Source: Siphonodentalium dalli
Taxonomy: Eukaryota > Mollusca > Scaphopoda > Gadilida > Siphonodentaliidae
Length of the DNA: 64,000 bases
Assembly (NCBI GenBank): GCA_032622095.1
Contig: CP136066.1
Span: 100,027,319 to 100,091,318, forward strand
Direction of reading: 5' to 3'
Positions 18,987 to 48,919 of the stretch are shown here, piece after piece (within the stretch, counting starts at the first letter, position 1; each line of letters begins with the position of its first letter). Made by a program: the position numbers and the translations under genes. Under the pieces are notes generated by a model. That model searched no databases and was not told the DNA's origin. It saw nothing but the letters and a program-made list of their open reading frames with translations.

Positions 18987-19880
18987 ATGGCAGAATCAAC
19001 GGGATATACAGATCCGATTTTCAAAATCAGACTCCTCGATGAAATGTCTGAAGAAGAATTAGAAAGAATGTTCCTAGCTCCGTATCCCGAGTCGGAGGAT
19101 AATAGTGATCAGATTGCAGAAAATTCCAACAACAACAATCAAAATGTCACACCTGTTCTACTTGAAACTGTTGATCTACCGGTAACAAGTAATAACATTA
19201 TTGAAATTGAACCAGTTTTGAATGTAACTGAGCCTTCTAGATAGCCTAGCAGACCTGCTGTGCCACTGCCAGATATGAACATTTCTGAACAATTTGATAA
19301 TCCCACACTCCAAAGATTTAGTGATGTCACCGATCAAAATCTGAATGACTTCATTGAGCAGGAAAACAGAAATACACTAAAAAAAATAAAAATGATTTGA
19401 ACATCCTTGAACAGTACTTGACAAGAACCGGTGAATATAGAAAAAATCCCATCGTCGGAATTGGATATGGTCCTGGGTAAATTCCTCCTGAGTGTTCGCA
19501 AGAGGAACGGGGATGAATTTGAACCATCATCTCTTCGCTCTATCATCTCAAGTGTGGATCGGTACATACAAAGACACAAATACGGAACAACGATAATGAA
19601 TTCGAAAGATGACTGCTTTGATATTACCAGACGGGCACTTTTAGCAAAGCAGAAGCAGCTTAAGAAATCCGGCCGTGGCAATAGGCCACATAAGGCAGAT
19701 CGACTGACCGATTCGGAAATAAATCAATTATTTCAAAGTGAGCAGTTGGGAATTTCAAGCCCCGATGCAGTACTAAACACCCTGTTGTTCAATAACACTT
19801 TACATCTCGGACTTCGTGGGAAAACAGAACACAGAAATTTGGCACGGGGTGACGCTAAAGCTCGGTCCCCCATTTGCTAA
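18987..19880 (+). pseudogene. Crypton-type tyrosine recombinase (DUF3504 family), truncated copy
   Basis: Starts at ATG 18987 with an acidic N-terminus (MAESTGYTDPIFKIRLLDEM), as in the second copy at 47123. An in-frame TAG at 19242 and frameshifts around 19390-19430 separate it from the core-binding part (19431-19880: NGDEFEPSSLRSI, KKSGRGNRPHKADRLTDSEI, NTLHLGLRGKTEHRN). The family is known from Cryptons and from domesticated proteins such as KIAA1958, QRICH1 and ZMYM proteins. The frame stops just after the first catalytic Arg region (LRGKTEHRNL); the His-x-x-Arg and Tyr blocks are absent. It therefore cannot be an active recombinase. Confidence 0.75.
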
Positions 19881-25929: not shown

Positions 25930-26476
25930 CTTTCGGTCAATTTGACGCATGGGTTGGTGGCCCGCCCAAATACCCACCAGCCTTCACCCGGGGGAGGGTA
26001 ACGGCCACCCTGAGGGGGTGGAGTATGGACTATTTTGGAGAACTGTAAGGATTTCGGCCAATTTGATAGTATGGGTGGGTGGCTCGCCCCAAATAGCCCA
26101 TATAAACACCCCACCCCTCACATCTGGGGGGGGGGGGGGGTACCACCGAGGGGGTGAACGTGGGATATGGACCATTTTCGAGACTGGTAAGGATTTCGGC
26201 CAATTGACGGCATGGATGGATGGCCCGCTCAAATGTCCCATAGAAACAGCCCACACCTGAACGCTGGGGGAACCACCCCAGGAGGTTAAAACGGGGTATG
26301 GACCATTTTCGAGAACGGTAAGGATTTCGGTCAATTTGACGTCAGCAGTGTGGGTAGCCCGCTCCAACTACCCCCTAGAAACACCCTCACCCGGAGGTAC
26401 CACCCCGAGGGGGTGAAATGGGGTATGGACCATTTTCGAGAACGGTGGGTGGCACATCCCAAATGCCCCCCATAGA
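25930..26476 (+). repeat. GC-rich minisatellite, left of the Polinton
   Basis: About four units of 120-140 bp, each with GGTATGGACCATTTTCGAGA, ACGGTAAGGATTTCGGCCAA, a TGGGTGGCCCGC segment, and CATAGAAACACC. The same unit appears in reverse orientation right of the Polinton (41663-42510). Open frames here are repeat artefacts. Confidence 0.8.
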
Positions 26477-26482
26477 AACACC
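26477..26482 (+). repeat. Polinton target-site duplication AACACC, left
   Basis: AACACC at 26477-26482 is repeated at 41657-41662, directly outside AGTAGTAATGG and its complement. A 6-bp duplication is the Polinton/Maverick hallmark. Confidence 0.9.
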
Positions 26483-26782
26483 AGTAGTAATGGTGGGCAC
26501 TATGGCCCAGTACCCCCCCAGACATGGGCACTATGGCCCAGTACCCCCCAGACATGGGCACTATGGCCCAGTACCCCCCAGACATGGGCACTATGGCCCA
26601 TGGGCCATAGTGCCCATGTCTGGGGGGGTACTGGGCCATAGTGCCCATGTCTGGGGGGTACTGGGCCATAGTGCCCATGTCTGGGGGTACTGGGCCATAG
26701 TTCCCACCCTGAGGATAGATGTTCCTGTCATTGATGTGACATTTCTGATCGAAAAAATGGACTTAGAATTATTTTTTTCAAA
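26483..26782 (+). repeat. Polinton left terminal inverted repeat with internal palindrome
   Basis: About 300 bp. Three units of a 30-bp module (CACTATGGCCCAGTACCCCC then CAGACATGGG) run to a perfect palindrome GGGCACTATGGCCCAT/ATGGGCCATAGTGCCC near 26585-26616, then three modules follow in reverse orientation. After these comes the non-repetitive part, CACCCTGAGGATAGATGTTC through CATTTCTGATCGAAAAAATG, shared with the right end. Open frames across it are artefacts. Confidence 0.9.
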
Positions 26783-26844
26783 AGGAAAATCTCACTTTGG
26801 AAAATATCAATTAGCTATCAAGAGTATCTTTTCGATCATTTGGT

Positions 26845-26860
26845 GGCCCTGAAAAGGGCC
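26845..26860 (-). promoter_or_regulatory. Histone-type 3' stem-loop of the OTU-like gene
   Basis: On the minus strand: GGCCCTTTTCAGGGCC, a six-pair stem with TTTC loop, preceded by an A-rich AATAAAAC and followed by ACCA. This equals the animal replication-dependent histone mRNA 3' signal (GGYYCTTTTCAGRRCC, ACCA flank). It lies about 130 bases beyond the stop of the minus-strand gene ending at 26991. A downstream GAAAAGATACTCTTGATAGC resembles the segment after the plus-strand copy and could be the histone downstream element. The structure is seen directly; processing by SLBP/U7 is inferred. Confidence 0.75.
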
Positions 26861-26990
26861 GTTTTATTTTTGTTATAGTTTAGAATCCGCCACATTGAAC
26901 TTCTTTGTTCGCCAAAACTTCAATTGATTTGTCTCCTCGCCTCATCCATATTTCGCATTCACAATAATGCTCGTGGCAAACGTGGGGAAT

Positions 26991-27344
26991 CTACACTAGA
27001 GGTATTGATGACTTGAATCTTGGTGTTGATTTGTAGCCGCCTTTGGTAGCATCAAACATGACGATAGGTCGCTGTATAACAGTCGCCGCTAATTCAACCA
27101 TCAATCTTGATTCGGCCAAAAGTGGTGTGCGCCGTAAATCTTGTGCCGACGCACCAAGTTCGTCACTCTCTGCGTAGTACAGGTCAACTGCCGCATCTCT
27201 CAGAATCATCCATCCATCGGTCGTCCCGTAAATCCCGAGGCTGAGTGCCCTCCAAAATAGCGATATTTCTTCACCGTACACTGCTTTACAGTATACCCCA
27301 CCGCCCATTATCTCGTCAAGATCTGTTATGTTTACAGCAGTCAT
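26991..27344 (-). CDS. OTU-like protein, catalytic Cys apparently lost
   Basis: 117 residues from ATG 27344. FWRALSLGIYGTTDG (residues 30-44), LRDAAVDLYY (49-57) and the C-terminal MVELAATVIQRPIVMFDAT (82-100) follow the order of the OTU deubiquitinase fold, where a DGNC-L-F-R-AL motif normally precedes LYGT. Here the DGNC position reads EEIS (25-28), so the nucleophile Cys would be Ser and the Asp Glu. No C-terminal His was identified. It may be a non-catalytic ubiquitin-binding relic or a distant homologue. It is transcribed divergently from the next gene, through a shared mirror-image promoter, and ends in a histone-type stem-loop. Fold assignment is by motif only. Confidence 0.45.
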   Translation of the reverse strand: MTAVNITDLDEIMGGGVYCKAVYGEEISLFWRALSLGIYGTTDGWMILRDAAVDLYYAESDELGASAQDLRRTPLLAESRLMVELAATVIQRPIVMFDATKGGYKSTPRFKSSIPLV

Positions 27345-27957
27345 CTTTGAATGTAGAATAAGTCTGAAGATCCGTCTTGAACATATATCACGATTGCGCG
27401 GGCGGTAGAGAAAGCATATAATACTTTGACGTTAAAAATGACAAATGTTCCCTGACGTTGTGTTTCTTTTCAGTGCATTATCTGTTAGTTTCACCATTTC
27501 GATATGTTATAGATTAAATTCATGATAGTATATACAATTAATTAAGATGTTTTAACATATGAATTCATCTTCGTTCATAAACGATGACCAAGTAAAGTTA
27601 TCAAATGCAATGATCAAGAAAAATGTTCAGTATGTTTCTTGTGTTCAGTTTTTATGTATAAAATATGTACAATTCCAAAACCAAAAACTAGAAAAACATT
27701 CCATATTTGCCTAACGAGGTAATAAATATATCAATCATGTGTACCAAATAATAGATAATGATCTAACGAAATTAAAAACATTTGTTTGATCGCTATGCAA
27801 TAATGATCAAGAAAAATATGCATGTTGATCCGGTTCTGAAAAAACACAACGTCAGGAAATATTTGTCAATTTTAACGCCAACGTGACATGTGATTTCATT
27901 GTCGCCCGTGTCAAATGTATACAAATATTTTCACTTTTTCAGTGAACTTCATTCATT
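27345..27957. promoter_or_regulatory. Mirror-image bidirectional promoter region
   Basis: Bases 27429-27473 and 27836-27881 are inverted copies of a 45-bp block: GACGTTAAAAATGACAAATG, then TTCCCTGACGTTGTGTTT. One copy lies 85 bp upstream of the minus-strand ATG at 27344 and the other 77 bp upstream of the plus-strand ATG at 27958, at matching distance. A ATGATCAAGAAAAAT motif also recurs (about 27610, 27803). The two genes, both with histone-type 3' ends, therefore seem co-regulated. Confidence 0.65.
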
Positions 27958-28323
27958 ATGCCGTCTTTAAAGAAATTTATCAAGAAGTTGTGGAGGAAGA
28001 GAGATTCGTCAGAGGAGACGGAGATAAAAAGATATAGGAAATGGCAGGATTCTCCTGAACAAAAGATAGTTCAGAAGCAGATGCTAAGAGATTTTCTGGC
28101 TCGGCGACGACCATCGCCTGAAGTATGTGATCAAGAATCAAGCAATCAAGAATCAAGCAATCTTGATCTCGTGGAGATCTTGTCACAGATCAAGAAGAAA
28201 GATCTGTGCAATGCAGCAATTGACAGCTTCGCTCAGGCTGCTGCGGCGCACATATCAAATCCTACTTGGTCTGTGACAATTAATCCCAACGGGATATATC
28301 CTGATTTGGCAGAATTTTTATGA
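27958..28323 (+). CDS. Small basic N-terminus protein, unidentified, with histone-type 3' end
   Basis: 121 residues from ATG 27958. Residues 1-56 are highly basic with an amphipathic look (MPSLKKFIKKLWRKRDSS). Next comes a short direct repeat (QESSN twice), then a helix around NLDLVEILSQIKKKDLCNAA, an Ala-rich stretch and an ITINPNG-like end. I do not recognise a family; it is not a histone fold. The stop is 18 bases before a histone-type stem-loop, the spacing seen in real histone mRNAs. It shares a mirrored promoter with the OTU-like gene. The basic N-terminus would suit nucleic acid binding; that is inference. Confidence 0.6.
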   Translation: MPSLKKFIKKLWRKRDSSEETEIKRYRKWQDSPEQKIVQKQMLRDFLARRRPSPEVCDQESSNQESSNLDLVEILSQIKKKDLCNAAIDSFAQAAAAHISNPTWSVTINPNGIYPDLAEFL

Positions 28324-28341
28324 ATTCTGGAAAGAAAAAAC

Positions 28342-28357
28342 GGCCCTTTTCAGGGCC
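28342..28357 (+). promoter_or_regulatory. Histone-type 3' stem-loop of the small basic protein gene
   Basis: GGCCCTTTTCAGGGCC with A-rich 5' flank (AAAGAAAAAAC) and ACCCACA 3' flank matches the animal histone mRNA consensus at every conserved position. AAAAGGTTACTCTTTCATAGC follows about 17 bases later, similar to the segment after the minus-strand copy. No AATAAA lies between the stop and the stem-loop. Confidence 0.8.
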
Positions 28358-28425
28358 ACCCACATTTCCCAAAAGGTTACTCTTTCATAGCTGAAAAAAA
28401 CAAAACACGATTGTTCAATTCATAA

Positions 28426-28431
28426 TTTATT
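28426..28431 (-). terminator. Poly(A) signal of the CCHC gene
   Basis: AATAAA on the minus strand, 16 bases downstream of the CCHC gene stop at 28447. This gene uses ordinary polyadenylation, unlike its neighbour with the histone-type end. Confidence 0.5.
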
Positions 28432-28446
28432 CACACAACATAATTT

Positions 28447-29049
28447 TCAAATGTTTGTATCGATTCGTTTATCTGTTTTTGGAATGTAGAATGGTCTCAG
28501 CTTCTTTTTCTTGGAAGTTTTCTTGGAATTTTCAAAATCTGGATGTTTATCTTCAGATTTGTTCTGTGAATCATTCTTAGGATCAACAGGTCGGGTTTGT
28601 TTGAAAACATCTGATGTTGTAGACATCTCTTCAGTTTTGATATCTGCATTTTGTTCTTGTATTGTTACTGCTTGTAGACATTTTTGCATAGTTTTCACAT
28701 TTTTTTTGTCGCCGAAATCTGTTTTACAATGGAAGGACCAATGGGATTCTTGTCCGCATTTGTAACAGTAACCATATGGCGGTTTCCAATTTTTATTAGC
28801 TTTGTTTTTCTCTTGTTTCTCTTGCCATTGCATTTTGTTACAAAGTTTAAACAAATTGGCAGAGATCTGTCTCAATTCGACAAGATTATCTTGAATTTTT
28901 CTAGTCTGTGGCTGTGTAGATTTTTTTGAATCTTCTTTATGTAGCTCAATATAGCTCTCTTCAATAACTGCAGGCCTTGGTCTTTTTCTAACAATATCTT
29001 CTTCGCTGGTGGCGTCATCTGAAACAGGTCTTTTAATTCTCTTAAACAT
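28447..29049 (-). CDS. CCHC zinc-knuckle protein
   Basis: 200 residues from ATG 29049; the frame extends eight codons further but only to a TTG. A basic/acidic N-terminus (MFKRIKRPVSDD, then an EEDIVRKRPRP segment) leads to a helical region and a single zinc knuckle, C95-x2-C98-x4-H103-x4-C108 (CYKCGQESHWSFHC), followed by a Lys/Ser-rich tail. Zinc knuckles bind single-stranded nucleic acid; a role in packaging or polymerase function is possible but inferred. The first 40 or so codons and the leader are present as an inverted copy at the start of the polymerase gene (29254 onward). Confidence 0.75.
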   Translation of the reverse strand: MFKRIKRPVSDDATSEEDIVRKRPRPAVIEESYIELHKEDSKKSTQPQTRKIQDNLVELRQISANLFKLCNKMQWQEKQEKNKANKNWKPPYGYCYKCGQESHWSFHCKTDFGDKKNVKTMQKCLQAVTIQEQNADIKTEEMSTTSDVFKQTRPVDPKNDSQNKSEDKHPDFENSKKTSKKKKLRPFYIPKTDKRIDTNI

Positions 29050-29253
29050 TTTTGTCTTGAGTTTTGTCAGCAAAAACTATTGCGACTGGCTTCTTCGGAG
29101 TTGAAGTGTAAAGTGTAGAATTACATCTGCTTTTATAGCATTTTCATCGCGAATGCTATAAAAGCTATAAAAGCAGGTGTAATTCTACACTTTACACTTC
29201 AACTCCGAAGAAGCCAGTCGCAATATTTTTTGCTGACAAAACTCAAGACAAAA
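29050..29253. promoter_or_regulatory. Divergent TATA promoter inside a large inverted duplication
   Basis: Centre near 29147. A TATA box GCTATAAAAGC faces left at 29139-29129 and two face right at 29155-29165 and 29164-29174. Leaders on both sides are mirror copies (AGGTGTAATTCTACACTTTA, then CACTTCAACTCCGAAGAAGC) and the identity runs on into both coding starts. This drives the CCHC gene leftward and the polymerase rightward. Confidence 0.8.
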
Positions 29254-32200
29254 ATGTTTTAGAGAATTAAAAGACCTGTTTCAGACGACGCCACCTGGAA
29301 GAAGATATTGTTAGAAAAAGACCAAGGCCTGCAGTTATTGAAGAGAGCGATATGGAGACTGATGAGGCAGAAAGTGAAGAGAGCGATATGGAAACTGAAT
29401 AGAGAAATTGGTGGGAAGAGAAAGAGAAGTCTGGCTAGAGAGCGTGTTGTGTTAAATCCAACAAAATATTTCAAATTGGAGCTGAACTCGGAGAAATTTT
29501 CCAGAAAATTTAAATCAGCATCACGACAATTTGGTGTGAAATTCGAGAAATTTACAGATCCAATCGAAAACATTCCAGAGATATTTGAGAAGTTGACAGA
29601 AGAATTGAAACAGAAATGTTCAGCAAATGAGAAGACAAGAATCAGAGTTACGATAAATCATCCAGGACTTGATATGAGCATTTTCATTCCATTCACAAAA
29701 GCCAGTGAATTGAATGGTGGGACACTCATGGATAATATTCAAAATGTGGTTCAATCAAATGCAGACTTTACAATTCATGACGGTGCACTCAATTTCGAAA
29801 TCTTCGTTACAGATATTCCGGAAGGTGGTACACGACACTCACTACATTATGGACCATTTGCAGACAAGAACAAGCTGACAAAAGTAAAAAGAAGTATTGT
29901 CCGGATTGAAAATGCTGATGATGTTATGTGTATGGCAAGATCTATTGTCGTCGGAATGTGTAAGGCAGATAGTGATGGATCTGCGTGCTGGTCAAAGAAA
30001 TGGAAAAGAATAAGACAATCAATATACACAGCACAAACAGATGCAGCAAAAAATCTACTCAACCGTGCTGGCATTCCACACGATACAGTTTGCAGTATCA
30101 ATGAGTTCCACAAGATTCAATAAATATTGTATCCAGAATATGTTGTGAAAATTCACAATGAATTTGCTGGCGCTGGATTTCTATTTGAACCTGCAGAAAT
30201 GTGTTCGGAGAGCAAATGTGTACACATCTACTACAACAACAATCACTTCGACACCATAACATCAATCAAAGGATTTCTAGGCACCAGCTACTACTGCGAA
30301 TTCTGTGACATTGGATTCCATATGCGTGGCGATCATCGATGCAGATTTGTTTGTGCATGCTGGTCATTGACACAGTGTAATTTCACAAATTGGGTGAAGT
30401 GTAGAACGTGTCGACGATCATTCAGAAGTAAATCTTGTTTCGACAACCATTTGAAGACGGAAGGAAAACAGAAAAGAAAAATATGTGATTTGGTTCAACT
30501 ATGCAACAATTGTGATGAAGAAATTCTCATCAATAAATCAAGCAGACATATATGTGCGGGGTTGAAGAAATGCAAACATTGCAAAGAAATCGTTGAAGCA
30601 GATCACAGGTGCTATATTCCAAAATATGAATCACCGGAAAAGAAACCTGCAAAGATTCCATATGTATTCTTTGACTTTGAATGCAGACAAGACACAGGTG
30701 TTCATATTCCAAACTTCTGTGTTACACATACCGCTTGTGGAGATTGCATGTGCAAACCAATCGAAGAAAAATGTGAAACATGCGGACCGGATTCCAGAGA
30801 ATTTGTATTCAAGGGTGACAACGTTTTAACAGACTTCACAAACTGGTTATTCCACCAAGATCACAAAGGATGTGTTGCAATAGCACATAATGCTCAGGGA
30901 TACGATGCACAGTTTCTACTTCAAGCACTCATACAAAGTGGAATTCATAAACCAGATCTGATCATGAATGGAAACAAGATTCTCAGTTTAAAATGCAACA
31001 GCGTGAAAGTTATTGATTCTCTGAGTTTTCTGATGATGCCGCTTTCAAAGTTTCCACAAACTTTTCAGCTGAATGAGATGGCGAAAGGACACTTTCCACA
31101 TTGGGCGAATTCACCAAAGTTTCAAAATTGCATTGGACATTACTTGGCTTCTGATTACTACAAACCAGACATGATGAGCGTGGAAAATCGAGAGAAATTC
31201 TTTGAATGGTACAATGAGAAAAAATAGAAAATTACGTGATATTCAACTTCCAAGAAGAGATGGAGAAGTACTGCAAATCAGACGTGGATATTCTTCGCCG
31301 TGGATGTGGAAAATTCAGGAAATACATATTGGAAACAGAACAGATTGACCCGTTCATTGAGTCAATAACATTGGCGCAAGTTTGCAATTTGGCATGGAGG
31401 AAGAATTCAATGCCAGAGAAAACAATTGGAATCATTCCAGATGGTGGATACCCATGTGCTAAAAACTATTCCATGAAAGCGATACGTTGGCTTCAACATA
31501 TATCATTGTCACGTATGATAACAATCAAGCATGCTTTGAATGGAGGAGAAATCAAGATTGGTGGACACTACGTCGATGGATATGAGGAAGCCACAAGAAC
31601 AGTTTTTGAGATGAATGGATGTCTGTTTCATGGATGTCCAAAATGTTACAACAACAGACAATACAAGAATCCCTATACGATGCTCACCATGGAAGAATTA
31701 TATACAAGAACTCAACAGAAGAAAGATGAACTGGAAAGTCTTGGTTACAGAGTTGAATCAATTTGGGAGCATCAGATCGACGAAAGAATGAAATCGGATG
31801 TGAAATTCAAACAACAAATGGAATCTTTCTACAAACATCGAGACCCCATTTTGCCAAGAGAAGCATTGTTTGGTGGACGTACAAATGCCATCAAATTGTA
31901 CGAGGAAATTGATCAAGATTCCACAAAAGAAATCAAGTTCATCGATGTGTGTTCGTTGTATCCATTTTGCAACAAATATAAATTCTACCCTGTTGGACAT
32001 CCAGAAATTTTGATCCAAGAGCAGATCGATCAAGAACACATTAGAGACTATGCGGGGCTTGTTAAATGTACAATTTTACCACCATCGAAATTGTATATTC
32101 CAGTTCTACCGATTCATTGTAACAAGAAAATGGTTTTTACTCTGTGCAACACTTGTGCCATCAATGAGAACAAGGCATGTAACCATTCAGAAGAAGATCG

Positions 32201-33185
32201 AGCTATAACCGGAGTGTGGACCACGCCAGAATTATTCAAAGCAATGGATGTTGGCTACAAAATACTTGATGTGTACCAAATTTGGCATTGGACAGATTGG
32301 ACAGATGAAATATACAAATCCTATATCGACAAACATCTAAAGATCAAACAGGAATGTAGTGGTTATCCATTTGGTGTTGAGACAGAAGAACAGAAGCAAA
32401 AGTGTGTACAGGATTATTATGCAGCTGAGGGTATAAAATTGGAGAATCCAGGAAAACGCCAAATATCTAAAATTATGATTAATTGTATATGGGGTAAGAA
32501 TGCACAAAGAAATCTTATGTCAAAAACAGAGTATGTGGATAAGCCATCACGTTATTTTGAATTGCTTACTAGTAACAATATAATTGTTCAATATGTTACA
32601 CTTCTTGATGGTGACAAATTCATTCTGGTAAATTATGTTGATATTTTAGATAATATTGAACCTCATCATTCAGCAAATGTTGTTGTTGATTCTTTTGTTA
32701 CAGCGTATACAAGATTACAATTGTATAAAGTTTAAAAAAAACTTGGAGATAGAGTGCTGTATTTTGATACAGACAGCTGTATGTATGTCAGTGATCCATC
32801 AGAGAAGAACATCAAAACTATCGAAGGAAGATTGGGGAAATGGAGCGACGAACATCCAGATGCAAAGATTGTCAAATTTGTTGGACTTGGGCCAAAGAAC
32901 TACGGATATGAATACATCAAAGATGGGAGAAGATACACCAAATGTAAGGTAAAAGGTATCACTCTTGATTACAGCACAAGTCAAAAAGTTAATTTTGAAA
33001 CAATGGTACAATGTGTTAATGATCGTGAAAATTTCAAAACTATTGTTGAGTATCCTTCCAGAATTAAAAGACAAAAGAACCATCAACTAATTAGTGAGTG
33101 TCAAACCAAAACTTTCAGATCGGTGTACACAAAACGAAAACTCGTCAATGGTATTCACACATATCCATACGGATGGAGATGTTGA
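29254..33185 (+). pseudogene. polB: Polinton DNA polymerase B, disrupted
   Basis: Protein-primed family B polymerase. Parts seen: N-terminal region (29308-30120), Cys/His-rich zinc-finger segment (about 30280-30610), exonuclease motifs DFEC (near 30670) and HNAQGYD (near 30890), YCKSDVDIL (near 31270), polymerase motif A with CSLYP (near 31950), motif B KIMINCIWGKN (near 32475), motif C YFDTDS (near 32762) and the family-typical C-terminal YPYGW at 33170-33185. Breaks: TAG as third codon after ATG 29254 plus an indel in the 5' region, in-frame TAA at 30121, a one-base loss in an A-run at 31219-31226 and in-frame TAA at 32733. The replication gene is thus dead as assembled, while its motifs remain conserved, so inactivation is recent. 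Confidence 0.9.
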
Positions 33186-33822: not shown

Positions 33823-34473
33823 ATGGAAGAATCTTTACTTTTCCAACATCCGTGTAATTTCTTTATCAGCGGACCTAGTGGATCAGGTAAAACAGAATTT
33901 GTTAAAAAAGTTATTGAATTTAAACACGATTTATTCCAAACACCACCAAATAAAATAGTTTGGTGTTACAAAGAATGGCAAGACACATACAATCGTATAA
34001 AAGAAATTGATAACGTTGAGTTTATCGATGGCATTCCAGACGATGATGAGGAAATTGTATCAGATAAATCATTTCCTCATCTTGTTGTTTTCGATGACAT
34101 GATGGGGGAACAAGATGAAGACAAAATAATGCTTTGGTTTACTAGAAAAGGTCATCATCGAAATGCTTCAATAATTTACATTACTCAAAACATGTTCCAA
34201 AAATCAAAAAGTAGCAGAACTATAAGTTTGAATGCACACTACATGGTTTTATTTCAAAGCGTTCGAGATAAAAATCAAATAAAAGTTTTGGCTCATCAAA
34301 TGCAAACCAATCATTTGAAACAAGCATACGAAGATGCAACTTCAATAAATCATGGATATATTTTAGTAGATTTTCATCCTAGAACAGAAAATTATTTGCG
34401 AATTAGAACTGATATTTTCCATAAATGGTTGACAGCTAATGACCGAGGTCCTGTCATTTATTCAAAAGTATAA
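33823..34473 (+). CDS. Packaging ATPase (FtsK/HerA-A32 type)
   Basis: 216 residues, intact. Walker A GPSGSGKT at residues 17-24, Walker B HLVVFDDMM at 86-94 with adjacent acidic residues D91/D92, and a sensor-like IYITQNMF at 118-125. This is the genome-packaging ATPase universal in Polintons, related to poxvirus A32-type and adenovirus-like packaging motors. It starts 33 bases after the preceding stop and is followed 34 bases later by the next gene, suggesting shared transcription. Confidence 0.9.
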   Translation: MEESLLFQHPCNFFISGPSGSGKTEFVKKVIEFKHDLFQTPPNKIVWCYKEWQDTYNRIKEIDNVEFIDGIPDDDEEIVSDKSFPHLVVFDDMMGEQDEDKIMLWFTRKGHHRNASIIYITQNMFQKSKSSRTISLNAHYMVLFQSVRDKNQIKVLAHQMQTNHLKQAYEDATSINHGYILVDFHPRTENYLRIRTDIFHKWLTANDRGPVIYSKV

Positions 34474-35535: not shown

Positions 35536-36243
35536 ATGAAGAAAATGGTTATTGTACCATTCAGAATGTTGGAAGATTTCAAACAATGGAAAATGTCAGA
35601 AATGAATAAACCTCAATTACCTCCTGATCCTGCAATTTCAAATGTTTCAGATTCTTACAAAGAATTGAAATCAGTTTATGATAAAAATATTTCTGAATCA
35701 GAAAAGTCAGTTATTTGGAGAAAATTTGTACAAATTGAAAACTTCACAAAAATCTTTAAATTCAAAATTCAGTTTACCTGAACAAAAGTTATCTGAAAAC
35801 TTTGGGAAAATGAGTGACCATATATTGGAAAGTGTACCATCTAAACTTCGTGGTAAAGCACAACAAATTTTAACATTGTTGTCAACTAATCCTAAACTTA
35901 GATGGGATGATCGTGGACAATTAATTTATGGAACAGAAACAGTTACTGGATCAAATATAATTGATTTGATAAACGATGTTGTTCGTCACCGAAAAGGTTT
36001 TAACCCAGTTGGTTATGAAACATTCCTACGTGGATTGGGGAACTTAATGTACCACAAGATTATGTAGGTAACAGGAATCGATGGTTGTGGATACAAAGAC
36101 ATTTAAAAGAAGGTCACACTGGTGATGAGTTTCATACACCTCATGCAACTCCTAGCAGTGGCAAGTCAAGAAAACGTTCAGTTGATATTTTCACACCAGA
36201 AACCAGAAAATCTATTTTGAAAGGATGGTCCCCACTTACATAA
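35536..36243 (+). pseudogene. Conserved Polinton accessory protein, two frameshifts
   Basis: Starts at ATG 35536. The first frame closes at 35781; the continuation is one base over from about 35750 (after an A5 run) to 36067, and the last part is shifted again near 36046 and ends at TAA 36241. The middle has a distinctive conserved block, SKLRGKAQQILTLL, WDDRGQLIYG, SNIIDLINDVVRHRKGFNP, which I associate with a widespread Polinton protein of unknown function. The first break fits one extra base and the second one missing A. The end overlaps the integrase start by 19 bases. Confidence 0.75.
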
Positions 36244-37319
36244 AATTTGACAAACTTCTAACTGAAATTTACTACAATCCAAAAGAAGTTGGTGGTTTCA
36301 GTGGAGCAAATCAACTTTTTAAAAATGCGAAAGAAACAAATAACAAAATTAAACTTTCAGATGTTAAAAAATGGTTACAATGGCAAAAAACATACACTTT
36401 GCACAAACCAATTGTTCGGAAATTTCGCAGACGTAAAACTATTGTTGCAGGAATTGATATTCAGTGGCAAGCTGATTTGGCAGATTTGCAAACTTTGCAA
36501 AAGCACAATGACAATTACAGATATTTACTTTGTGTTATTGATGTGTTCTCAAAATGTGCATGGGTTGAAAAAATTAAAGATAAAACTGGTAAAACTTTAG
36601 TTAAAACATTTCAGAAAATTCTCAAATCATCAAAACGAAAACCAGTTTCATTTCAATCTGACAAAGGTTCAGAATTCAAAAATAAATTATTTTTACAATT
36701 TTTGAAATCTAAGAAAATTCATTTTTTCACAACAGAGAATCCAGAGACAAAAGCAAGTATAGTTGAACGTTTTCAACGGACATTGAAAACAAAGATGTGG
36801 AAATATTTTACACATAATCAAACTTTGAAATACAATGATGTTTTGCACGATTTTGTGAATTCTTACAACAAAAGTTTTCATAGAAGTATTAAGATGGCAC
36901 CAGTTTTAGTAACTCGAGAAAATGAAATTGAAGTTTCCAGAAATCTTTATGGAAAGTTAAAAACGAAAAAAGATAAGATCTTGAAAGTTGGAGATTTTGT
37001 TAGAATAAATAAAACAAAGAGAACTTTTGATAAAGGATATCTTCCAAATTGGACAAAAGAAATTTTCAAAATTAGTAGAGTTTGTAAAAGTACACCATTA
37101 ACTTACAAATTAGTAGATTTAGATGGTGAAAACATCGCAGGATCATTTTATGGTAAAGAAATTCAACATATAAAAGATAATAAAGTTTACGAAATTGAAT
37201 CAGTTGTTGGTAAACGTTCAAGAAAAGTTTCTGGTAAATCAGTTAGAGAAATTAAAGTTCATTGGGCTGGTTATCCTAAAAAATTTGACAGTTGGATTCC
37301 TGCCACAAATTTGGTATAA
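36225..37319 (+). CDS. Retroviral-type integrase with chromodomain
   Basis: 364 residues, intact. A DDE core follows an N-terminal helical region: D84 in WQADL, D146 in SDKGSEF and E181 in SIVERFQRTL, with D-to-E spacing of 35. An SH3-like stretch (KVGDFVRI near 255-261) precedes a C-terminal chromodomain (322-364: YEIESVVG, IKVHWAGYPKKFDSW). Catalyses insertion of the element with 6-bp staggered cuts, consistent with the AACACC duplication. The chromodomain may guide insertion to marked chromatin. Codon use and AT content match the neighbouring genes. Confidence 0.95.
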   Translation: MVPTYIKFDKLLTEIYYNPKEVGGFSGANQLFKNAKETNNKIKLSDVKKWLQWQKTYTLHKPIVRKFRRRKTIVAGIDIQWQADLADLQTLQKHNDNYRYLLCVIDVFSKCAWVEKIKDKTGKTLVKTFQKILKSSKRKPVSFQSDKGSEFKNKLFLQFLKSKKIHFFTTENPETKASIVERFQRTLKTKMWKYFTHNQTLKYNDVLHDFVNSYNKSFHRSIKMAPVLVTRENEIEVSRNLYGKLKTKKDKILKVGDFVRINKTKRTFDKGYLPNWTKEIFKISRVCKSTPLTYKLVDLDGENIAGSFYGKEIQHIKDNKVYEIESVVGKRSRKVSGKSVREIKVHWAGYPKKFDSWIPATNLV

Positions 37320-38823: not shown

Positions 38824-40128
38824 ATGGCACAAATGGTAAATGGATCATGCGAATGCAATAAATCGGAACTTGATATAACACATGTTCCACCAACGGTGGC
38901 TACAATGTCAGAATCGCAGTGGATCGAAAATCATCCGATTGCACCGCTGAATAATTCTGCTCCGATAGAGTTTGTCATACCATCTCAAACCGAAAAGTGG
39001 ACAGATATTAATCAATCTTTTCTTTATGTGAAATTCAAAATTACAAAAAAAGATGGAACTAATTTGCTAGCTGGTACGGAATTAGCACCTGTTAACAATT
39101 TCTTTCATAGCATGTTCAGCAGTATCGATGTTTACTTGAACAACAAATTGATAACTTCGAATTCTGACACTTACCCATACCGAGCATATTTCGAAAATCT
39201 GTTGGGATACTCTCCAGAATATAAAGATAATCAATTAGCAAATTTAGAAATGTGGTATGGCGATACAGCAGAACAATTTGAAGAGAATAACAAAGGTGGT
39301 GGCAATGCTGGATTAACTTCTAGAGCAAGTTTGATCGGTGGTAGTAAAATTGTTGAACTATGTGGACGCTTACACACTGATCTGTTTCTTCAAGAAAAAT
39401 ATTTACCAAATGGAATTGAAATTCGTATCAGATTAAACAGATCACCATCAAAATTTTGCCTCATTGGCGCCGAGGATGGACAAATTGTTTTCGAATCAGC
39501 AGTGTTCCATGTCAGAACAGTTAGTCTCTTTCCAGTGGTCTCAAATAAATTAAATCAAGAAATTGTCCAGTCAAAAATGAAACTACCTATCAGACGAGTA
39601 GAAATAAAAACTTTCACAATTAGTACTGGACTTAGATCAAAAATTGAAGACCACTTATTTCAAGGACAATTACCAAAGAGAATTTTTATTGCATTGGTCG
39701 AAAATAAAGATATGAATGGAGATTTGGGTACCAATCCATTCCACTTCAAACATTTCAGTTTGAATAAATTGGAAGTTAGTCAAGACGGTCATACAATACA
39801 TAACCGTCCATTTGAACCAAACTTCGCAACAAAACAATGTCTCAGATCATATTTATCTTTGTATCAATCTTTAGGAATGTTTGGTGTCAACAAATCAATT
39901 GGCATTAATTTAAAAGAATATATGAATGGTTATTGTTTGTGGGGTTTCGACTTGACACCGGACCAAGGAAGCGACGAGGGACATCTACATCCTATAAAGA
40001 CAGGGAACCTGCGTTTGGAGCTTCAGTTCTTGACAGCTCTCACTACAGCCGTCAACGTTTTGGTGTATGCTGAATTCGACAGTGAAATAGAGATCACAGC
40101 TTTGAGAGAAGTGCTTACTGACTATTAG
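38824..40128 (+). CDS. Major capsid protein (double-jelly-roll type)
   Basis: 434 residues, intact. It has the Polinton PY/major capsid length and context, and resembles the uncharacterised F54H12.2-like proteins spread through invertebrate genomes by Polintons. Seen motifs: SQTEKWTDINQSFLYVKFKI (59-78), LAPVNNFFHSMFSSIDVYLN (about 90-109) and YPYRAYFENLLGYS (about 120-133). The family was predicted to form the hexon-like capsomer of a virion. Starts two bases after the previous stop codon. Confidence 0.8.
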   Translation: MAQMVNGSCECNKSELDITHVPPTVATMSESQWIENHPIAPLNNSAPIEFVIPSQTEKWTDINQSFLYVKFKITKKDGTNLLAGTELAPVNNFFHSMFSSIDVYLNNKLITSNSDTYPYRAYFENLLGYSPEYKDNQLANLEMWYGDTAEQFEENNKGGGNAGLTSRASLIGGSKIVELCGRLHTDLFLQEKYLPNGIEIRIRLNRSPSKFCLIGAEDGQIVFESAVFHVRTVSLFPVVSNKLNQEIVQSKMKLPIRRVEIKTFTISTGLRSKIEDHLFQGQLPKRIFIALVENKDMNGDLGTNPFHFKHFSLNKLEVSQDGHTIHNRPFEPNFATKQCLRSYLSLYQSLGMFGVNKSIGINLKEYMNGYCLWGFDLTPDQGSDEGHLHPIKTGNLRLELQFLTALTTAVNVLVYAEFDSEIEITALREVLTDY

Positions 40129-40129
40129 G

Positions 40130-40588
40130 ATGGAGTTCACAACACAGCTATGGAACTACTATGAAGAATACCGACGTTCACAACACGTTGCTCCGAGATT
40201 AAAACTGATCTTGGACACACTCAACAACGCTACGATTGAAGAACTACAAGAAATTATTCGCAAGGAAGTGTCAGCAAACTGTGAAGGATGTTAAATAGAA
40301 CATCCTAGTCAACGTGAACATGTTCTGTGTTTGTTCTCTACAACTGATGATTGGACAAACCAGTTTATCGACTTAGCACTGATTAAACTTGACATATACA
40401 ATGTTATGGAAAGATGGTTCCCGAAGCTGATGGAGTTAAACCCACACTGCAAGGAGAAGTTCGAAGCATACCTTATGTGGGATCATCTGAGAAACAGTTT
40501 GGAGCTCAACCGCAAAAAATTCGATGCAGAGTGGACTCTGATGTGGTCACAGCGAGTCAAAGAGAATTACAACGATGCAGACAGCTGA
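40130..40588 (+). pseudogene. Unidentified Polinton frame interrupted by one in-frame stop
   Basis: ATG 40130 starts one base after the capsid stop and gives 54 residues (MEFTTQLWNYYEEYRRSQHV, then a helical NATIEELQEIIRKEV segment) to TAA 40292. The same frame continues without further stops to 40588 with Trp-rich helices (DDWTNQF, EAYLMWDHLRN), and no ATG stands near the start of that second stretch. One 150-codon gene broken by a single stop is the simplest reading. Two short genes, the second with a non-ATG start, is the alternative. No family recognised. Confidence 0.5.
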
Positions 40589-41048
40589 ACTTCAATATAT
40601 TCTAGACAATTCCTGGTTTTGTAAACTTAACACATATGTTTGTGCTAGAGATCTGTTACCAGAGAAGAAACCACAACATATTCAAGCATATATTGTGAAC
40701 ACGCACTCATCGGATCAGCCAGGAGAACACTGGACCTTGATGTTATTCAAGGGAAGATCAGCTGTATACTTCGACTCATTTGGACTACCACCACCGAGAC
40801 GATATATGTTACCATTCATAAAAAGGAACTCATCAGCATGGACTATTAATACAACACGATATCAACATCGTGCGACAAATGTGTGTGGATTATATTGTAT
40901 ATTCGCACTCCACCACATGATGAAAGGAAAGAGGATGAAAAGATTATTCAATTCTCGGGATTTCTTCAAGAATGACAGAACAATAGTTCGATGGTTTGGA
41001 AAACACTATGGTCGATTATACAGAAAAGCAAATTTGCTGTTGAATTAA
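40575..41048 (+). CDS. Adenain-like cysteine protease
   Basis: 157 residues, intact. Catalytic triad order of the adenovirus protease family (C5/Ulp-like): H52 in PGEHWTLM, D67 in YFDSFG, C104 in NVCGLYC, with Q97 placed for the oxyanion hole. In Polintons it is expected to mature capsid proteins. It overlaps the preceding frame by 14 bases and is the last gene before the right terminal repeat; AATAAA at 41304-41309 could end the transcript. Confidence 0.9.
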   Translation: MQTAELQYILDNSWFCKLNTYVCARDLLPEKKPQHIQAYIVNTHSSDQPGEHWTLMLFKGRSAVYFDSFGLPPPRRYMLPFIKRNSSAWTINTTRYQHRATNVCGLYCIFALHHMMKGKRMKRLFNSRDFFKNDRTIVRWFGKHYGRLYRKANLLLN

Positions 41049-41429
41049 ACTTCACCAGCACATCGACGGCTGATATACATACAACGCAAAGAAGCCGACG
41101 ACCAGATAACAACGAATGTGTCAACAACTCCACAAAATAGACTCTTTTGTTATTGATTCAGCGTAGGATGTTGTAGGATGTTGTAGGATGTTCAATTAAG
41201 TTTCTTCAAATCTGAGACCTTGTTTTGTACATAAATTATTGTTCTTTGTTAATATTATTGATGTATAATAATATATTATTGTTCATTGTTCTTGTTTTTG
41301 AAAAATAAATGATAAATTTCAACAAAATCGTTTTCACTGTAGGATCCCCACCAATTGATTCTGTTCGTGTCGATGTGTCATCTCTGGTCAGAATTATACA
41401 AACTTTAAATTAGTAATGAAAAAATGTCT
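41049..41429. other. 3' region of the Polinton plus-strand genes
   Basis: Non-coding. Contains a triplicated GTAGGATGTT (41162-41192), AT-rich sequence, and a poly(A) signal AATAAA at 41304-41309 for the plus-strand transcript. Confidence 0.5.
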
Positions 41430-41656
41430 AAGTCCATTTTCATTTTTTCGATCAGAAATGTCACATCAATGACAGGAACATCTATCCTCAGGGTGGGAAC
41501 TATGGCCCAGTACCCCCCAGACATGGGCACTATGGCCCAGTACCCCCCAGACATGGGCACTATGGCCCAGTACCCCCCAGACATGGGCACTATGGCCCAT
41601 GGGCCATAGTGCCCATGTCTGGGGGGTACTGGGCCATAGTGCCCACCATTACTACT
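41430..41656 (-). repeat. Polinton right terminal inverted repeat
   Basis: Inverse of the left end. It shares the CATTTCTGATCGAAAAAATG block with a 6-bp indel, the 30-bp CACTATGGCCCAGTACCCCC modules and the GGGCACTATGGCCCAT palindrome. Counting outward it has three modules, the palindrome and only one reversed module, against three and three on the left. The arms therefore differ in module number but hardly in sequence. Confidence 0.9.
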
Positions 41657-41662
41657 AACACC

Positions 41663-42510
41663 CCACCCCCACCCGGACCCCATTTTCACCCGCTCGGGTA
41701 GAACCACCCGCGGTAAGGGTGGGGTTGTTTCTATGACTATATTTGAGGGTGGGCCGCCCACCAATGACGTCATATTGGCCGAAATCCTTACCGTTCTCGA
41801 TAACGGTCCATACCCGATTCTATGTGGTATTTGGGGCGGGCCACCTACACATGCCGTAATATTGACCAACAGAGACATGTTTTTGATAATAATGAATAAA
41901 ATGCTCCATACCCCATTTCACCCCAGCAGGGTGGTACCCTCCAGGGATGAGGGTATGGTGTCTATATGGGATATTTGGAGCGGACCACACACCCCTGTCG
42001 TCAAATTGGCCGAAATCCTTACCGTTCTCGAACATGGTTCATATCCCATCTTCACCCCTCGGGTGGTAACCCACCCCACCCCGCCAGGATGTGAGGGGTG
42101 GGGTGTTTATATGCGTTATTTGAGGTACCCTTCCCCGGGGGTGAGGGTTGTGGTGTTTCTATTCGGTATATGGGCGTACCCGATTTCCACCTCCTCTGGT
42201 GGGACCCCCCCCCCCGAGTGAGGGGTGGTTCTATGGTCTATTTTGATCGTGCCACCCACTCCTGCTGCCAAATTAATTAGCCTAAATCCTTACCGTCCAT
42301 AACCCTGTTATCCCGGGTGAGGGGTGATGTTTCTATCGGGTATTTATGGGCGAGCCACCCATTCATGCCGTCAAATTCGCCGAAATCCTTCCCGTTCTCA
42401 AAAATGGTCCATACCCCATTTTCACCCGTCCGGATGGTACCACCGGGGTGGTGGTGTTTCTATGGGGTACTTGTGGCGGGCCCCCACCCATGCCCTCAAG
42501 TGATATTTTT
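41663..42510 (-). repeat. GC-rich minisatellite, right of the Polinton, inverted
   Basis: Same unit as 25930-26476 but on the opposite strand (GGCCGAAATCCTTACCGTTC, then AATGGTCCATACCCCATTTT). About six degenerate units. The orientation switch lies within the first 40 bases after the Polinton, so before insertion the two blocks formed one large palindrome. Confidence 0.8.
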
Positions 42511-47122: not shown

Positions 47123-48919
47123 ATGTCTGACAATACAGACATCGACGATTTCACGAGATATTTCATTTTATCAGAATTTGAAGAGCTTCCACCTCCAAAT
47201 AGACCACTTGCAAGCAACAGTGATGAAATTACAGAATTATCTGATATTATGCCAGTATTGGCCGGCTCGAACTCTGAAAGTGAAACTGGTACATTTCGAC
47301 TTCGTACCGAAATGAACAGTCAACAAACAAGGTGAAGGTGTTTTGAGCTCAGGCGTTAGGCCTACTAACAGTCGGTTTGGGCTGATAGATCAGGGAGCCA
47401 TTTCAGACTTTATTGCTGATCAAGAAAATTTGAACACACGTAAAAAAAACTGAAAGTGACATGCGTCTGTTTAGTTATTCTGTAGTGAGCAGGGAGTAGA
47501 TACCAAGCCAGATTTGATGGAAACTAAAACATTGGACTTGTTATTTGGGAATTTCCTCAGTGTTGTCAAAAAACCAATGGGGACGATTATGAACCTTCGA
47601 CTATTCGAGGATTTGTGTCCAGTTTGGAGCGTTATTTACGTTCACAGCACTATCCCCACACTGTCAATAAGAACCCTCTCTTTCCACACTGTAACAAGGC
47701 TGTTGTTGCAAAGATGAAATATCTAAAATCTCGTGGTCGTGGTAATAAACCGAATGAAGCAGATGAATTGACTGATGAAGACATTGAAAACTTCTTCAAG
47801 ACAGGTCAGATGGGAATCGACACACCCAACCAGATAGTGAATTTCCTTCATGTAACATTCTCAATGGTTCTTGGAATGCGCGGTGGCAGAGAACAACGTA
47901 GCCTAACATGGGGTGACATAAGCCTTTCTACAGATGAGGATAGTGATGAATATTTGGAGCATGTACGTGAGTGGCAAACTAAAACTCGAACAGGCACAGA
48001 TCCAACAAATATTAGGAAATTTAAACCAAAGGCATGGCACTATATGGAAGATATGCAACGCTGTCCAGTACGGGCTTACAAAATATATAGAGACAAAAGA
48101 ACTCCTGCCATGTGTACACCTGACTCGCCATTCTTCCTTGAGATAAACTATACGAAAAATCCCAATCTACCTTGGTTAAAAAATTGTCCTATGGGAGTGA
48201 ACCATATTTATGGTCTTGTAAAGAAAATGAAATCAAAATGTGATGAAATAATGCAGAAAGAAGATACAAGGAAAATAACAAACCACAGTGTACGCAAACA
48301 TATGATGCAGAAATGTAACGATATGGGACTGCCTGCTAATTGTACTATCCAAATAAGTGGACACAGGAATGTAGGCAGTGCAAACAGTTACAGTAAGTTG
48401 AATGAAAAGCAACAGTAATCAATATCAACTTCTCTAATGCGCCCCCTGGAGTCAGCCAGTTCTGCTGTTGTTCCGTATCGACATTCAATGGCACCAAAAC
48501 CAGTACCTCAGAACCATGCTTCTGCATCATGTTCTACTGTTACTAGTATGAATCATCAACTTGATCAAGCTCAACATGAAATGAATTATGATTCCACATG
48601 TATTTCAACATCATCGGTGTCAACAAATAACCAAAACTTTGAACTGGACACAAACTTTGTCGCCTCTTCCCAAAAGTCAATGACAGTAACAAAATCAGGC
48701 ATGGACTCTAACAAGAGAGTCGTGATAAGAGATAACAGGGACTGCACATTCCACTTCAATTTCTACGGATCAAACATGACTGAAGTCGATCAACAAAAGG
48801 GACTTTCCAACGATTATGCGGAAGGAGTTATAAATACACCCGTAAAACGAAGAAGAATATTACCAATTATCGAATCAGATGATGAGGATGACGGCAAATT
48901 CCAGTCGAATGAGCTTTGA
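47123..48919 (+). pseudogene. Crypton-type tyrosine recombinase (DUF3504 family), full-length but broken
   Basis: ATG 47123 (MSDNTDIDDFTRYFILSEFE) starts an acidic N-terminus that stops at 47335; frameshifts follow to about 47640. From there the core is open to 48418: SRGRGNKPNEADELTDEDIE, the first Arg block GMRGGREQRSLTWGD, NHSVRKHMM (His-x-x-Arg), SGHRNVGSANSYSKL (second His and nucleophile Tyr). An in-frame TAA at 48416 separates a C-terminal part (48422-48919) with CTFHFNFYGS and KRRRILPIIESDDEDD, typical of KIAA1958-like proteins. All catalytic residues are present, yet the gene is interrupted several times. Related copy at 18987. Confidence 0.75.

Follow-up and report, generated by a model that had tools for sequence, protein, structure and literature searches.

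Two divergently oriented genes of a Polinton, here designated A and B, are each followed by a stem-loop of the type found in the 3′ UTRs of metazoan histone mRNAs, and we interpret them as a divergent two-gene module that is probably under the same kind of control as a replication-dependent histone gene pair of the host; we put the probability of this at roughly two in three. The coding regions of A and B are dissimilar and are flanked by two common DNA blocks, one upstream and one including the hairpin and downstream element, and it is this arrangement that is new here. On the best reading of the sequence, both synthesis and 3′-end formation of the A and B mRNAs would follow the pattern of replication-dependent histone mRNAs. 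Coordinates refer to the window, i.e. the whole 64-kb stretch of DNA that was analyzed, and those of the individual features are listed in Table 1.

Histone-type stem-loops downstream of genes A and B

The hairpin sequence GGCCCTTTTCAGGGCC is present in two exact copies in the window, in opposite orientations and each in sense with the ORF that precedes it, and there is no third copy in the window with three or fewer mismatches. Shuffled windows contain a mean of 0.11 copies, and none of 100 contains two or more. The hairpins are ~1.5 kb apart, and the one of B begins 18 nt past the stop codon and that of A 130 nt past it; the original prediction of one perfect stem-loop in each orientation, 18 and about 130 bases past the stops, is thus borne out. 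Both sense strands have a 6-bp stem and a 4-nt loop with single-stranded flanks, and in both the 5′ flank is A-rich and the 3′ flank contains ACC(C)A. The hairpin was also considered as a part of the terminal inverted repeat, and this was rejected as there is no right-hand counterpart with three or fewer mismatches and the repeat stops at ~26759–26771.

A search with the Rfam covariance model RF00032, which scores the stem, the loop, and both flanks jointly and has a gathering threshold of 34 bits, had been proposed along with the prediction. When run on the window the model places both hairpins above this threshold, with 40.8 bits for the B hairpin (E 1.4e-8) and 37.8 bits for the A hairpin (E 1.8e-7; both E values are per window), and there are no further matches in the 64-kb window at E≤1.

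Table 1. Features of the A/B module and of the Polinton that carries it, in order of position in the window.
Feature	Coordinates	Strand	Remarks
Left inverted-repeat region	26019..26771	.	Sub-repeats; edges ~25912 and ~26759 by gapped BLAST; ~73 nt between inner edge and hairpin A
Putative histone downstream element, gene A	26813..26832	(-)	AAAAG, TACTCTT, ATAGCT; begins 12 nt past hairpin
Histone-type 3′ stem-loop, gene A	26845..26860	(-)	GGCCCTTTTCAGGGCC in sense; RF00032 match 26820-26865
AATAAA, possible alternative poly(A) signal of gene A	26863..26868	(-)	+122 nt from stop; ends 2 nt before hairpin
ORF A	26991..27344	(-)	117 aa; GC 47.5%
Upstream block of A	27399..27468	(-)	ACACAACGTCAGG at 27451-27463, 106 nt before ATG; 79% inverted copy of B block
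Upstream block of B	27839..27908	(+)	ACACAACGTCAGG at 27844-27856, 101 nt before ATG
ORF B	27958..28323	(+)	121 aa; basic N-terminus; GC 42.1%
Histone-type 3′ stem-loop, gene B	28342..28357	(+)	GGCCCTTTTCAGGGCC in sense; RF00032 match 28337-28381
Putative histone downstream element, gene B	28371..28392	(+)	AAAAG, TACTCTT, ATAGCT; begins 13 nt past hairpin
Gene C	28447..29049	(-)	Convergent with B; AATAAA 28426-28431, 15 nt past stop
PolB region	30199..33185	(+)	ORFs 30199-31227 and 31260-32735 match PF03175 (E 1.9e-8, 1.1e-25); 32781-33185 without Pfam match
Packaging-type ATPase	33823..34473	(+)	PF04665 Pox_A32, E 1.3e-8
Integrase (rve) with chromodomain (INT)	36225..37319	(+)	PF00665 E 1.5e-11, Chromo E 1.1e-5
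Major capsid protein (MCP; putative)	38824..40128	(+)	Named eukaryotic relatives among the best 120 of 960 'F54H12.2-like'; no Pfam match
Adenovirus-type protease (putative)	40575..41048	(+)	PF00770 19.9 bits, weak match; cut-off 21.3
Right inverted-repeat region	41429..42457	.	Gapped BLAST extends to ~42499

Shared sequence blocks in the A and B units

BLAST alignment of the A unit (26701–27650) against the B unit (27651–28450) identifies two significant blocks of DNA similarity, which are at matching positions in the two units; the seven other matches are 9–16 nt long with E 3.4. The upstream match spans 48 nt at 87.5% (27426–27473 versus 27836–27881; E 2.6e-11) and the 3′ match 62 nt at 81% (26813–26871 versus 28331–28392; E 1.6e-8). 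Beyond the two upstream blocks ACACAACGTCAGG is not found in the window with fewer than three mismatches. The similarity between the upstream regions (27345–27475 and 27832–27957) runs on to a common CGCCCG core. In the 3′ block the order is AAAACGGCCCTTTTCAGGGCCACC, followed by AAAAG at 12 or 13 nt, and then TACTCTT and ATAGCT, and comparison of the two copies confirms the earlier claim that these three post-loop motifs are alike. This AAAAG/TACTCTT/ATAGCT block would occupy the expected place of a histone downstream element (HDE), and we refer to it as a putative HDE.

The A and B proteins do not align with each other at E≤100, and the idea that they are diverged copies of one protein is thus unsupported. 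Start and end signals that are common to such dissimilar genes would point to selection for co-regulation, regardless of whether the module originated by inverted duplication. Co-regulation under selection best explains the sharing of these signals, conservation here being that between the two signals of one element.

The Polinton carrying the module

The element had been described as a Polinton, and its PolB, rve-chromo integrase, A32-type ATPase, and inverted repeats agree with that assignment. It shares these features, and a putative capsid-type protein, with the Polinton/Maverick elements of bivalves, whose C5-type protease may have a counterpart in a weakly matching ORF of this element; unlike the bivalve elements it carries, in addition, the divergent A/B genes with their histone-type ends. 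Seventeen ORFs of the element, each 100 aa or longer, were taken as genes and compared with Pfam, and none matches a histone or an SLBP family.

The terminal inverted repeats (26019–26771 versus 41429–42457) are 94% identical over the inner 89 nt, and their outer ends are not sharp. The inner part of the repeats (26494–26706 and 41494–41647) consists of a 30-bp unit, TGGGCACTATGGCCCAGTACCCCCCAGACA, in palindromic arrays. Matches to microRNA families at 26543–26659 and 41572–41627 were discarded, as they are below gathering and fall on these palindromic 30-bp repeats. The PolB region is split into several ORFs, indicating that this copy of the Polinton is decayed rather than intact. Both hairpins are perfect although PolB is broken in the same copy.

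The capsid-type protein has 960 relatives, the best of which are 64% identical. Among the best 120 of the 960 there are 10 named eukaryotic proteins, all of them bivalve 'F54H12.2-like' proteins (from Mercenaria, Ostrea, Saccostrea, and Crassostrea), and one protein from a MAG labelled Candidatus Thiodiazotropha, which is a genus of clam symbionts. Judged from these relatives, the element would probably have a bivalve host. The name 'F54H12.2-like' presumably corresponds to the Polinton capsid protein, and this is the basis of the capsid label in Table 1. Scans of IMG/VR with confirmation by tblastn, using the capsid-type protein (alone and as two alignments), ORF A, the ATPase, and one PolB piece, identified no relative, and neither did a scan of GTDB contigs with a 24-row capsid-type alignment. 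The two alignments have 24 and 17 rows, including the window's own sequence, and the remaining rows were chosen from the best 120 of the 960 relatives. Outside of the Polinton, ORFs at 19467–19880 and 47714–48418 match DUF3504 (E 3.2e-9 and 1.3e-14, respectively), and the second of these also has a weak phage-integrase-type match.

Genes A and B and the origin of the module

A and B are short, divergently oriented ORFs. Neither matches a Pfam family at E≤10 (few matches above about 0.1 pass the HMMER filters), and by this search neither encodes a histone. In PHROGs there is no match to A and nothing better than E 0.18 for B, and the best PDB matches have E 1.4 (A) and E 2.7 (B). Protein-database searching gave no relative of A at E≤0.01 or of B at E≤0.001; such a search needs shared five-residue words, and the source assemblies may leave short ORFs unpredicted. 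A resemblance of A to OTU-type proteases noted by eye is without profile support and was not retained. Single-sequence folds, with mean pLDDT of 44 for A and 57 for B, are too poor for use.

Codon usage gives moderate support for A (z 2.5) and weak support for B (z 1.3), compared with 3.4–5.7 for four other element ORFs, and for B another frame has the higher codon score (0.128 versus 0.040). We regard B as a real gene because of its open frame, its upstream block, and its 3′ signal. A and B may be acquired or fast-evolving genes.

To the right of B there is a near-perfect inverted duplication (28945–29357) with arms of 136 nt (96%) and 60 nt (97%), by which gene C (-) and gene D (+) acquire similar TATA-bearing upstream regions. 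The N-terminal coding part of C is within the duplicated sequence, and the copied start on the D side soon meets an in-frame stop.

Divergent pairing, a shared upstream block, and a shared hairpin and HDE together are the layout of histone gene pairs, and the module could therefore be captured host DNA, derived from a divergent histone pair of the host with its coding parts replaced or diverged, in which case the inherited hairpins may or may not work. The GC contents of A and B are above those of INT (28.9%) and MCP (36.3%), which served for comparison, and the poorer fit of their codon usage to that of the core genes is also in keeping with such an origin. However, there is no match to a histone, or to any other Pfam family, for either protein, and the hairpin and HDE have been kept while the rest of the units, outside of the shared blocks, gives no significant alignment, which argues for continued use. 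We consider capture unlikely, and it would explain origin without excluding function.

Poly(A) signals

The ends of the 17 ORFs were scanned for A[AT]TAAA in an interval that begins 30 nt ahead of the stop and extends 300 nt past it. There is none in this interval at the end of ORF B; genes A and C each have an AATAAA, and among the 14 other ORFs nine have a signal and five, including two of the PolB pieces, do not. Since five of the 16 ORFs other than B are without a signal, the lack of one at B carries little weight. The AATAAA immediately before the A hairpin makes a second, polyadenylated form of the A transcript possible. In one study, a poly(A) signal is described upstream of the hairpin in human histone H4 pre-mRNA, and human H2AC18 is reported to make both 3′-end forms (PMC9756948). 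Gene A resembles the histone genes with alternative 3′ ends, such as human H4, in having AATAAA before the hairpin, and differs from human H2AC18 and H4 in that it encodes no histone.

The original prediction that these Polinton genes use the histone pathway stands in part. The Polinton hallmarks and the RF00032 signal in sense after two ORFs are in its favor, but A is the less clean case, with an AATAAA that abuts its hairpin. One alternative is that the hairpin serves translation or stability through SLBP only and that the 3′ ends are generated by ordinary cleavage and polyadenylation, as the position of the A signal at +122 from the stop and the human H4 and H2AC18 precedents (PMC9756948) would allow. 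Against it are gene B, without A[AT]TAAA within 300 nt, and the HDE-like blocks common to both units, and we think it quite improbable.

Specificity of the hairpin match

The element contains 14 perfect hairpins with 6-bp stems and 4-nt loops, and hairpin shape by itself is thus weaker evidence; three of the 14 have at least five G/C in the stem, namely the A and B hairpins and one at 42061. The 51-nt sense strands of A and B both fold to the 6-bp/4-nt hairpin, with z −2.85 for A (1 of 200 shuffles equally stable) and z −1.65 for B (16 of 200), such that folding energy taken singly gives modest support. A generic regular expression for metazoan histone hairpins matches twice in the window and not at all in 300 dinucleotide shuffles.

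Prokaryotic contigs serve as an outside yardstick, since the 19-mer GGCCCTTTTCAGGGCCACC can have no histone role there. In 257 Gb of these (GTDB) it occurs exactly in two places, with RF00032 scores of 30.5 and 29.8 bits against the threshold of 34. These bacterial places (L003:3474-3492 and L004:1762-1780) fall just below the cut-off and are a lesson on chance matches. Two looser DNA patterns are found at 2 and 8 places in IMG/VR (2.9 million viral contigs), none of which matches RF00032 at E≤0.1. The window hairpins thus outscore all 12 chance occurrences of the core hairpin sequence from IMG/VR and the prokaryotic contigs, none of which reaches gathering, indicating that the flanks (the A-rich 5′ side, ACC(C)A, and AAAAG) add to the RF00032 score.

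These comparisons bear on the suggestion that the hairpin acts at the DNA level or is a by-product of inverted duplication, i.e. a copied palindrome that happens to resemble the histone signal. The element does have other inverted duplications with arms at 96% and 97% (e.g. 28945–29357), in addition to its numerous 6-4-6 hairpins and the further GC-rich one at 42061. A DNA hairpin, however, needs neither the A-rich 5′ side, the ACC(C)A, and the AAAAG spacing, nor the sense orientation at both genes, and the 12 chance core copies are either below gathering or without a score; we view this suggestion as very unlikely. Chance resemblance is barely credible, for although the window was presumably picked from many, the two E values, the sense position of both matches after ORFs with a common upstream block, and the 0 of 300 shuffles all stand against it.

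Comparison with histone mRNA 3′ ends

The A and B hairpins have in common with the metazoan histone 3′ UTR stem-loop (RF00032) the 6-bp stem, the 4-nt loop, the A-rich 5′ flank, ACC(C)A, and a score above gathering. As in histone genes, an AAAAG-type element is located 12–13 nt downstream, and the hairpin is near the stop of short, divergently paired ORFs. Unlike in replication-dependent histone genes, the hairpins follow two ORFs that belong to a mobile element and do not match histones.

For the clam Lucina pectinata, a palindrome near the stop of histone mRNAs is reported (PMC6210712). Purine-rich elements are given only for H1_A, H2A_X, H3, and H4, and H1_B is said to be without these sequences (PMC6210712). 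The reverse complements of the H2A, H3, and H4 primers (three of the five pairs in its Table 1) are AACGGCCCTTTTT, AACGGCCCTTTTT, and AACGGCCCTTATT, respectively, and such a stretch is missing from the H1_A and H2B primer pairs of the same table (PMC6210712). The three primers appear to cover the 5′ arm of the hairpin, and bivalve histone hairpins would thus appear to use the same GGCCC arm as found here (PMC6210712), which makes the host side of the proposal plausible.

Histone 3′-end formation involves SLBP, U7 snRNP, and CPSF73 (background in PMC5011920 and PMC9756948). The original prediction held that use of this signal in animals is restricted to histones, and this agrees with a 2009 statement that histone RNAs are the only ones for which SLBP is known (PMC2781718). 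Among the matches listed for titles and abstract openings in open-licence PubMed Central, there is no report of Polintons, or of mobile elements of other kinds, with histone-type ends.

Discussion

We favor a divergent two-gene module controlled like a host histone gene pair because RF00032 is matched twice above gathering and in sense, because the shared blocks are at matching positions, and because C has an AATAAA but B does not. This reading is weakened by the AATAAA of A, the lack of relatives of A and B in our searches, their weaker codon support, the modest fold of the B hairpin, and the broken PolB. Its fullest form, in which two non-histone Polinton genes with a shared upstream block have SLBP/U7-dependent ends without a poly(A) tail and expression that is locked to the host S phase, we would rate slightly better than an even bet.

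On this module reading, host SLBP would bind the hairpin and U7 snRNP would pair with the downstream element, and CPSF73 would cleave ~5 nt past the hairpin to give two mRNAs without poly(A) tails. The A and B mRNAs would presumably be made, translated, and kept only during cellular DNA replication, so that the supply of the two proteins would coincide with the time at which the element can draw on S-phase nucleotides and replication factors to replicate itself. The arrangement of signals suggests that the element plugs the A and B genes into the DNA-replication timetable of the cell.

Metazoan histone 3′-end formation is regarded as private to the replication-dependent histones. If the reading is correct, A and B would be the first non-histone users of this pathway, and the Polinton the first mobile element to use it, among the open-licence literature found, and the ends of these Polinton genes would be a natural non-histone substrate for histone 3′-end formation. 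Transcripts of A and B would then escape RNA-seq of poly(A)-selected libraries, and the module would offer a hypothesis, open to testing, on the way in which an integrated virus-like element may time its genes to S phase.
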